The position numbers were made by a program, and so were the translations under genes. DNA of 64,000 bases, from NCBI RefSeq assembly GCF_947241125.1, contig NZ_OX365700.1, positions 1,302,001 through 1,366,000 of the forward strand, read 5' to 3'. The notes below the pieces were generated by a model, which did not search any database, had not been told where the DNA came from, and saw only the letters and a program-made list of their open reading frames with translations. This DNA comes from Nitrospira tepida (GTDB lineage: Bacteria > Nitrospirota > Nitrospiria > Nitrospirales > Nitrospiraceae). This document shows positions 5,694 to 63,550 of the stretch, one piece after another (position 1 is the stretch's first letter; every line of letters starts with the position of its first letter).

Positions 5694-5728
5694 GTGGAAG
5701 GCTTGCGGTAGCGGATCAGAATCGGAAC

Positions 5729-6442
5729 ATGCAGAGCATGCAGAACATGGAGAACATGGCGGACGGCGAGCAAGAGGTGCAGTTCGATGACCGGGGGCTC
5801 ATCCCGGCGATCGTCCAGGATTGGCGGGACGGGTCCGTGCTGATGCTGGGGTATATGAATCGGGAGGCGTTGGATCGGACCAGATCCACCCGCTCCGTGC
5901 ATTTTTGGAGTCGCTCCCGGCAGCGACTGTGGGAAAAGGGGGAAACCTCGGGCCATCGGTTGATCGTGAAGGACCTCTTTATCGATTGCGATCAGGATAC
6001 GATTCTGGTGAAGGCCGAACCGGTTGGCCCGACCTGCCACACAGGCAAGCAGAGCTGCTTTTTCACCGAGTTGAAGGGAAGCGAGGGGCAGGATCGGAAC
6101 CCGTCCGCCGCGTTGGGCGGAATCTTGGAACGGATCGCGGAAACCGTCCGCGACCGGCGCGCGAACCCACGCGCCGGGTCTTACGTGTCCAAACTGCTGG
6201 AAGGAGGGCCGGATCGGTTCCTCAAGAAGGTCGTCGAAGAGGCCGGGGAGGTTCTGCTCGCCGGCAAGAACGCCAAGCGGGAGGAGATTGTCTACGAGGT
6301 GGCCGATCTGCTCTTCCACACCCTGATCGTCCTGGAAGCCAACGAGATCCCCCTCAGCGATGTCTACCGGGAACTGGCTGCCCGCCATGGCAAGTCTGGG
6401 CTTCGTCCGGCTCACCCCGGGGAAGGAGGCGCCGGTGAGTGA
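5729..6442 (+). CDS. hisI: Bifunctional phosphoribosyl-AMP cyclohydrolase / phosphoribosyl-ATP pyrophosphatase
   Basis: A HisIE fusion. Residues ~12-115 are the cyclohydrolase, with zinc/magnesium motifs DCDQD and GPTCHTGKQSCF. Residues ~125-215 are the MazG-like pyrophosphatase, with KKVVEEAGEVLLA and YEVADLLFH. The two domains catalyse steps 3 and 2 of the pathway. Start choice is uncertain: four ATGs occur in the first ten codons, embedded in near-repeats of CATGCAGA, and none has a strong ribosome-binding site; the first is given. The 3' end overlaps the HIT gene by 8 bases. Confidence 0.94.
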   Translation: MQSMQNMENMADGEQEVQFDDRGLIPAIVQDWRDGSVLMLGYMNREALDRTRSTRSVHFWSRSRQRLWEKGETSGHRLIVKDLFIDCDQDTILVKAEPVGPTCHTGKQSCFFTELKGSEGQDRNPSAALGGILERIAETVRDRRANPRAGSYVSKLLEGGPDRFLKKVVEEAGEVLLAGKNAKREEIVYEVADLLFHTLIVLEANEIPLSDVYRELAARHGKSGLRPAHPGEGGAGE

Positions 6443-62453: not shown

Positions 62454-62852
62454 ATGATCGAACAACGGATCGAAGAAGTGGCGCGCGTCAACCAGGCGTT
62501 TTACGAGGCCTTCGAGAGCCTCGATATCACGCAGATGGACAAGATCTGGCTCCAGCAGGACTATGTCACCTGTATCCACCCGGGCTGGGGACTCCGCTCC
62601 GGCTGGCCGGCGGTGCGGGATTCCTGGGTGCTGATTTTCAACCATACCTTCGACATGAAGTTCGAGCTGACCGATGTCGAGGTCCAGGTCGCCGGCGATG
62701 TGGCCTGGGTGATTTGCACGGAGAACCTGACCACCAAGCAGGATGAGACGACGGTGCAGACCCGCATCCTGGCGACGAATCTGTTTGAGCGAGTGGGGGA
62801 TGAGTGGCTGATGATCCACCATCACGGCAGCCCGGTGATGGGGGGAGGGTGA
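62454..62852 (+). CDS. SnoaL/NTF2-like domain protein
   Basis: 132 residues, cone-shaped alpha+beta fold of the SnoaL_3 type: helical start (EEVARVNQAFYEAFESLDITQMDKIW), then CIHPGWGLRSGWPAVRDSW, and strands ending RILATNLFERVGDEWLMIHHHGSPV. Such proteins often bind small hydrophobic ligands or act on nitro/keto substrates; a specific role is not evident. AGGAG lies 5 bases before ATG. Confidence 0.88.
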   Translation: MIEQRIEEVARVNQAFYEAFESLDITQMDKIWLQQDYVTCIHPGWGLRSGWPAVRDSWVLIFNHTFDMKFELTDVEVQVAGDVAWVICTENLTTKQDETTVQTRILATNLFERVGDEWLMIHHHGSPVMGGG

Positions 62853-62870
62853 TCAGGCTCATGCCCTCCC

Positions 62871-63341
62871 GTGCTCGCAGAGGCCGCACGATCGGAATGT
62901 GCTCCCTCGATGCGCGCAGTCGGAGGACATGAGCCTGCTCACCAGACTGATAGAGGAGCGTAGAAAAAGGCGAAGGGGTGAAACTCAGTCTGGGGGGGGG
63001 GTGGCTGAAGCGGCCATATAGGCTCGTGTGCTCGTGCAACGCGCGCCCTCAGAAGGGCCTCGTTGGACACGCGCAGTGGGAGCCTACATGGCCGCTTCGC
63101 CCGAGCGGAAGGGACCAGGAAAGAGGAGCAAGTCGGGGGGGGTGGATCTGAAGGGAAGCGGACGTGGCGGTCGGTCTACATTCTGTGCTCGCAGAACGCG
63201 CACACCTCGGAAGGGTGCTCGTCCGATGCGCGCAATTGAAGGCAGACCGAACCGCCGCTAGAAGAGGAAAAGCGAAAGGACGGACTCCGGCTACTCTCGC
63301 TCGACGGCCGCAGTTGGGGACCCATCGTCCTGCCGTCCTCA
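62871..63341 (+). repeat. Three tandem copies of a 157-bp repeat with a conserved hairpin
   Basis: Copies start at 62871, 63028 and 63185, exactly 157 bases apart. Each begins GTGCTCG-, has a GCGCGCA-like block around +40 to +50, and a hairpin near +14 to +35. The hairpin stem differs but stays paired: GCAC/GTGC in copy 1, GCCC/GGGC in copy 2 and CACC/GGTG in copy 3, with GGAA or AGAA in the loop. The second half of each unit contains purine-rich and poly-G stretches and is less conserved. No gene is apparent in it. Confidence 0.7.
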
Positions 63342-63550
63342 AGGACCGAGCGTGTCGAGTTTAAAGTGACATAGTACTTTTTGCGAGGTTCAAGTAGACT
63401 TGCCTCCCAGCGGAGTGTTGAGGGTACTGTAGGTATGCTGCACGGGGAAGCTGCAGCAGACTTATTGGTTGGTAGCAGTGAGGCGCTTGTCTTTATAAAT
63501 AGATCGAGAGTTATTTCGCTGAACCTTGTTTAAGGAACGGGGCTATTGCC
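63342..63550. other. Gap of lower GC before the terminal gene
   Basis: About 210 bases after the last repeat, visibly richer in A+T than the preceding DNA. A possible -10 (TATAAA at 63494-63499) with a weak TTGGTA 19 bases upstream may serve the following gene. I see nothing else in it. Confidence 0.4.

Follow-up and report, generated by a model that had tools for sequence, protein, structure and literature searches.

A hairpin array behind a SnoaL-like gene

The window, by which we mean the whole 64,000-nucleotide stretch of DNA that was analysed, covers positions 1302001-1366000 of the complete 4.73 Mb genome of Nitrospira tepida. It contains a SnoaL-like gene on the forward strand (62454..62852), with a slot at its 3' end that holds an array of hairpin elements, all on the + strand. 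The left arm of copy 1 (62848..62944; core orientation +) overlaps the stop codon of the gene; this copy scores 99.2 bits (E 2.2e-18) against R1, a covariance model of the hairpin element, with a DNA fold z of -3.9. Copy 2 (63005..63101) scores 82.4 bits, with a fold z of -6.1, and copy 3 (63162..63260) scores 75.8 bits, with a fold z of -3.1. A fourth element (~63295-63341) is a right-half remnant (TCTCGCTCGACGGCCGCAGTTGGGGACC...), identified by reading the right-half core motif in the sequence. In other genomes, too, this gene is followed by similar piles of full elements and right halves. As the initial annotation had stated, the array lies at the edge of a lower-GC region, with GC dropping from 0.64 to ~0.47 just downstream.

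The conserved inner core spans 62871..62920 in copy 1 and recurs at +157 and +314 in copies 2 and 3. Judged by the starts of the TGCTC core (62872, 63029, and 63186), the copies are spaced exactly 157 and 157 bases apart, as had been reported. They had also been called a tandem repeat, a description that we do not uphold: the spacers are not homologous, and their similarity does not exceed that of shuffled sequence (as high in 59, 81, and 405 of 500 shuffles). The 157 bp therefore do not form a repeat unit, and Tandem Repeats Finder saw no array at the hairpin copies. We reject tandem duplication of a 157-bp unit, and the 157-base spacing is probably a coincidence. Core identity among the three copies is only 51-63%.

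Another conserved block of non-coding sequence (AGTAGACTTGCC...GTGCTGAGG...TGCACGGGGAAGCTGCAGCAGA) lies at 63388-63470 of the window and also at L086:9835(-), L010:2774(+), and L094:6699(+). This block, which has no Rfam match, was found in the window genome and in G009, and in three of four cases it adjoins hairpin arrays and lies upstream of a gene. Elsewhere in the window, a short 9-bp tandem repeat (GAACATGCA, 3.8 copies) occupies 5725-5758.

Pairing is conserved over a long, variable stem

Each window copy forms a hairpin of 97-99 nt, with an inner core (TGCTCGCAGAG..GCGCGCAGT) atop an outer stem of ~22 bp. The apical stems described in the initial annotation (GCAC/GTGC, GCCC/GGGC, and CACC/GGTG, with GGAA/AGAA loops) are present, but pairing extends much further, through an outer stem that also pairs in each copy. 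The sequence of this outer stem is different in every copy, yet self-complementary, with arms that are 91% and 95% complementary in the window copies.

For a covariation test, 12 genomic copies were aligned without structure information. Compensatory changes on both sides occurred in 29 of 38 pairs, and 87% of paired cells could pair, compared with 70% in shuffled and 33-44% in slid alignments; none of 500 shuffles matched the observed covariation. The earlier proposal that pairing is kept by compensatory change is therefore borne out. It also holds among true orthologues, where loss of pairing had been named as evidence against it: 14 elements of one clade at the SnoaL slot align readily and keep their pairing, with two-sided changes in 8 of 35 pairs, including C-G to G-C in five core sequences as well as A-U to C-G swaps.

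Arms can also be replaced wholesale. This was seen in comparisons of sister loci that are 91-92% identical, and in one 91% pair the arms differ completely. Part of the copy-to-copy covariation therefore reflects turnover of family members rather than stepwise compensation. In one sister pair the arms evolve faster than the flanks. We considered whether the variable arms are pre-existing target palindromes and rejected this reading because the arms follow a consensus common to the family, and because a single arm type has turned up repeatedly at one slot, in lineages that are separate.

Several variants of the element were seen. One subfamily has a longer apical part and measures ~120 nt; another has short arms (GCGCGTGGGATG) and reappears at the SnoaL slot of separate lineages. 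Loci noted for these two subfamilies are L095:12335-12454, L029:1762-1882, L204, and L235. Recent copies additionally bear a 3' tail and, at the 5' end, a short leader rich in purines. Across 112 copies, the 12 nt just 5' of the hairpin are purine-rich on the sense strand and often AAGGAG-like (77% pyrimidine on the antisense strand).

The family is specific to Nitrospiraceae

A blastn search of the window genome matched 21 places. The covariance-model search suggested by the initial annotation turned up many further copies, both in the window genome and in relatives. R1 gave 39 matches in the window genome; the hairpin is nearly palindromic, and some of these matches are pairs of hits, one per strand, to a single hairpin. 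Matches were found in 23 of 24 other Nitrospiraceae genomes, with 1-86 each (24 of 25 including the window genome), and in only 1 of 16 genomes from other families of the same order. G001, G006, G011, G020, and G022 have 0-2 copies each. Relatives fetched through a conserved neighbouring gene were nearly all labelled Nitrospira or other Nitrospiraceae/Nitrospirae. The hairpin family is Nitrospiraceae-specific. Further repeat families (AGGATGCTGAAAAAG, GCAAGGCCGCAGC, and GGTACGTTGAG) occur at loci of G009 and G016 (L098 14351-14447, L102, and others), some of them near hairpin copies.

Elements occupy positions directly behind genes

In 54 of the 67 copies for which both neighbours were called, the upstream gene runs in the direction of the core strand, and the left end of the element falls between -6 and +32 nt from the stop codon of the upstream gene in 37 of 62 copies; gene calls for these counts were made with a simple codon score. 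The SnoaL-like gene has a single orthologue in 56 of 60 Nitrospiraceae genomes sampled, and elements fill its slot at 27 of 80 orthologous loci, with no difference in orientation among them. Across 401 kb of flanking sequence at SnoaL loci, 29 of 30 hits fall in the slot. On the gene tree, occupancy takes 8 changes against a shuffled mean of 26.8; it tracks the tree, so much of it reflects vertical inheritance. At a second slot, behind a methyltransferase gene, an element lies near the stop codon in only 3 of 30 orthologues. No recurrent protein gene that might be an autonomous partner adjoins the copies; the adjoining genes are ordinary orthologous ones.

Elements nest in one another and replace one another

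In a sample of 112 distinct copies, the left half of another element lies at most 60 nt upstream in 14, compared with a background of 0.37% (odds ratio 39, p 1e-16). New copies nest in the apical loops of resident, older copies. For one recent subfamily, two sister species and a third genome share the same junction (...GGCCTCAGAAGG / ...AGCCCTGTTGG) while the host arms differ. The point of insertion in the host loops is after GGCCTCAGAAGG; the inserts begin with a purine-rich leader of variably short length, and their tail ends near GAGGGnnCCnATA. The window genome has the tail AACGAGCAAGCTTGGAGGGAGCATCATAG at the same place. In one orthologous host hairpin, two sister species carry independent loop inserts (L161/L140).

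Slots also change occupants. Locus L235 holds an old 120-nt element. In the sister species, at L239, a new 97-nt element occupies the slot, with the right half of the old one after it. The junction letters vary, with no clean target-site duplication, and none of the loci compared formed an empty/filled pair with exact junctions. From nesting and slot turnover, we conclude that the elements behave as mobile units.

The antisense strand carries the conserved fold

Cells of the outer stem that depart from Watson-Crick pairing are strongly asymmetric. Read on the sense (core) strand of the 112 copies, 180 are A.C and 45 are G.T, and of 48 arm clusters, 40 lean toward A.C and 3 toward G.T (p 3e-9); a slid control gave a ratio of 0.80. 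An A.C cell on the sense strand is a G.T or G.U wobble on the other strand, so the excess of A.C indicates that it is the strand antisense to the upstream gene whose pairing has been maintained. Folding energies lean the same way: the antisense strand folds more strongly in 106 of 112 copies as DNA and in 86 of 112 as RNA. The asymmetry is weaker among the SnoaL-slot orthologues (27 to 46, p 0.03). It is present in all genomes. Mutational strand bias was rejected as its cause, since the asymmetry appears in both chromosome orientations and the sense-strand flanks are G-rich (skew +0.19), the reverse of what a G-to-A bias would give.

Because the kept fold is that of the antisense strand, the element is not a 3' UTR hairpin of the upstream gene's mRNA. 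Both a 3' UTR hairpin and a terminator were rejected, the wobbles being on the wrong strand and a T tract being absent. At least six T in the 12 nt after the hairpin were found in 1 of 112 copies on the sense strand and 19 of 112 on the antisense strand. A window scan found no intrinsic-terminator T tract near the array, and no consensus promoter was found there on the antisense strand.

Comparison with known classes and candidate enzymes

No Rfam family matched the hairpins at gathering score, in agreement with the earlier statement that no known class was recognised, and the papers searched held no description of the family. In N. moscoviensis, generic palindromes number in the thousands according to a tool paper, whose consulted passages do not name this family (PMC12306157). 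REP elements are described as short palindromes of 14-40 nt (PMC12306157), and they have a GTAG or CGTC foot (PMC3733652). The Nitrospiraceae hairpins resemble the RAYT (TnpA_REP)-associated REP, BIME, and REPIN sequences in being extragenic, dispersed palindromic repeats, present in tens of copies at gene 3' ends, and in that one strand is probably processed as single-stranded DNA. They differ in their length of ~97 nt, their copy-specific outer stem and conserved apical core, their habit of nesting in their own apical loops, the absence of a conserved foot (GTAG lies nearby in 13 of 112 copies and CGTC in 3 of 112; the commonest feet are GCGG and AGGG), and the lack of correlation with Y1_Tnp.

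Integron attC sites carry R boxes (GTTRRRY / RYYYAAC) at the hairpin base. Like attC sites, the elements are hairpins directly behind ORFs whose structure is conserved above their sequence, and their antisense, or bottom, strand folds more stably than the top (by DNA energies, in the 106 copies noted above). Unlike attC sites, they lack R boxes, both of which are present in 0 of 112 copies; their conserved part is apical, not basal; their hosts are resident chromosomal genes, not mobile cassettes; and copy-rich genomes have no integrase. The MITE-like intergenic repeats of bacteria (ERIC, Correia/NEMIS, BOX, and RUP) are, by general description, likewise family-restricted, non-coding, ~100 nt long, foldable, and dispersed; the hairpin elements differ from them in that no terminal inverted repeats or target duplication were seen, and in their strong copy-to-copy covariation and self-nesting. 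Group IIC introns target hairpins near gene ends, a point of likeness, but most copy-rich genomes have no reverse transcriptase and the window array has no Rfam intron match. The family works partly like REP or attC hairpins but falls outside the tested definitions of both.

None of three candidate enzymes fits as the mobiliser, since none correlates with copy number. Y1_Tnp genes are present in the window genome, with no core motif near them; no Y1_Tnp match was found in the copy-rich genomes G009 (86 copies, 99% complete), G004, G013, G015, G018, G021, and G023, whereas G011 has Y1_Tnp and zero hairpin copies. Reverse transcriptase (PF00078) occurs in 5 of 25 genomes, not including G009 or G014. 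Integron integrase (TIGR02249) exceeds the cut-off only in G000 (the window genome) and G024 among the 25 genomes and is absent from copy-rich genomes such as G009. Two further observations concern this enzyme: repeated C-terminal fragments of it occur at G014:C48 and C176, and the window genome has an intact integrase gene 3 kb from a hairpin copy (G000:2945518 and 2948499).

Discussion

The initial annotation had proposed a structured RNA or a structured DNA/recombination element. Our results support that proposal and narrow it, through the mobile behaviour of the copies and the fold of the antisense strand. We think that the hairpins are probably non-autonomous mobile elements whose substrate is a folded antisense single strand. 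The observations behind this reading are the nesting, the shared junction, the orientation, the turnover, and the strand asymmetry. The working form would be one folded single strand, the antisense one, as ssDNA or RNA, and a putative enzyme would deliver it into exposed hairpin loops or the 3' ends of genes. Copies have inserted directly after stop codons, their core strand running in the sense of the gene, and into apical loops of residents, where one recent subfamily uses a single point. Delivery into exposed loops would make resident copies the landing sites for new ones. At a fixed slot, turnover leaves the right half of the old element behind. Compensatory changes would be kept because only a folded strand could move (or be read). 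Whether this amounts to a previously undescribed transposition, in which a folded antisense strand of ~100-130 nt homes into resident apical loops and replaces left halves through an enzyme that is neither a Y1 transposase, an integron integrase, nor a reverse transcriptase, is a more tentative matter, and we regard it as rather unlikely.

A structured RNA of the host is a possible but doubtful alternative, in which an antisense transcript at the 3' ends of certain genes takes on a fold with a regulatory or stabilising role, is under selection, and exists in several copies through old duplications. Selection on RNA classically leaves wobble pairs that are strand-specific, and a large clade has retained the SnoaL slot, with compensatory changes among its orthologues. 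A host RNA would sit poorly, however, with copy numbers of 0 to 86 among genomes of a single family, with nesting and replacement by unrelated arms, with arms that are wholly different between 91% identical sister loci, and with an antisense strand that has no consensus promoter and, at the window array, no nearby terminator. Passive palindromes, in which template switching during replication copies one arm onto the other so that pairing persists without function or transposition, would account for two-sided changes as single events and for arms that evolve faster than their flanks. We consider them very unlikely, as they leave unexplained the dispersed homologous cores, the fixed orientation behind stop codons, the nesting at one junction, and the strand asymmetry of mismatches.

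Two further readings invoke known systems. Ordinary REP elements with a REP-associated Y1 transposase (RAYT/TnpA_REP) as their mobiliser would fit extragenic, palindromic, high-copy sequences at gene 3' ends in a genome that has Y1_Tnp genes; against them stand the seven copy-rich genomes without Y1_Tnp, the reverse case of G011, the Y1 genes of the window genome with no core motif nearby, and the length and unconserved foot of the hairpin, and we judge this explanation improbable. That the hairpins are attC-like sites of an integron or another tyrosine-recombinase system is hardly credible: their place behind ORFs, their conservation of structure more than sequence, and their better-folding bottom strand would suit such sites, but the absent R boxes, the apical position of the conserved part, the restriction of integrase above the cut-off to G000 and G024, and the resident chromosomal genes that act as hosts would not.

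Wobble-pair asymmetry, as used here, gives a simple way to tell from sequence which of a repeat's strands folds. Nitrospira are dominant in nitrite oxidation and comammox, and most of the genomes sampled from their family carry, directly behind gene ends, a hairpin family that matches no curated RNA family. If these elements are mobile, as argued here, they represent a palindrome that spreads by using the loops of its own relatives as landing sites.
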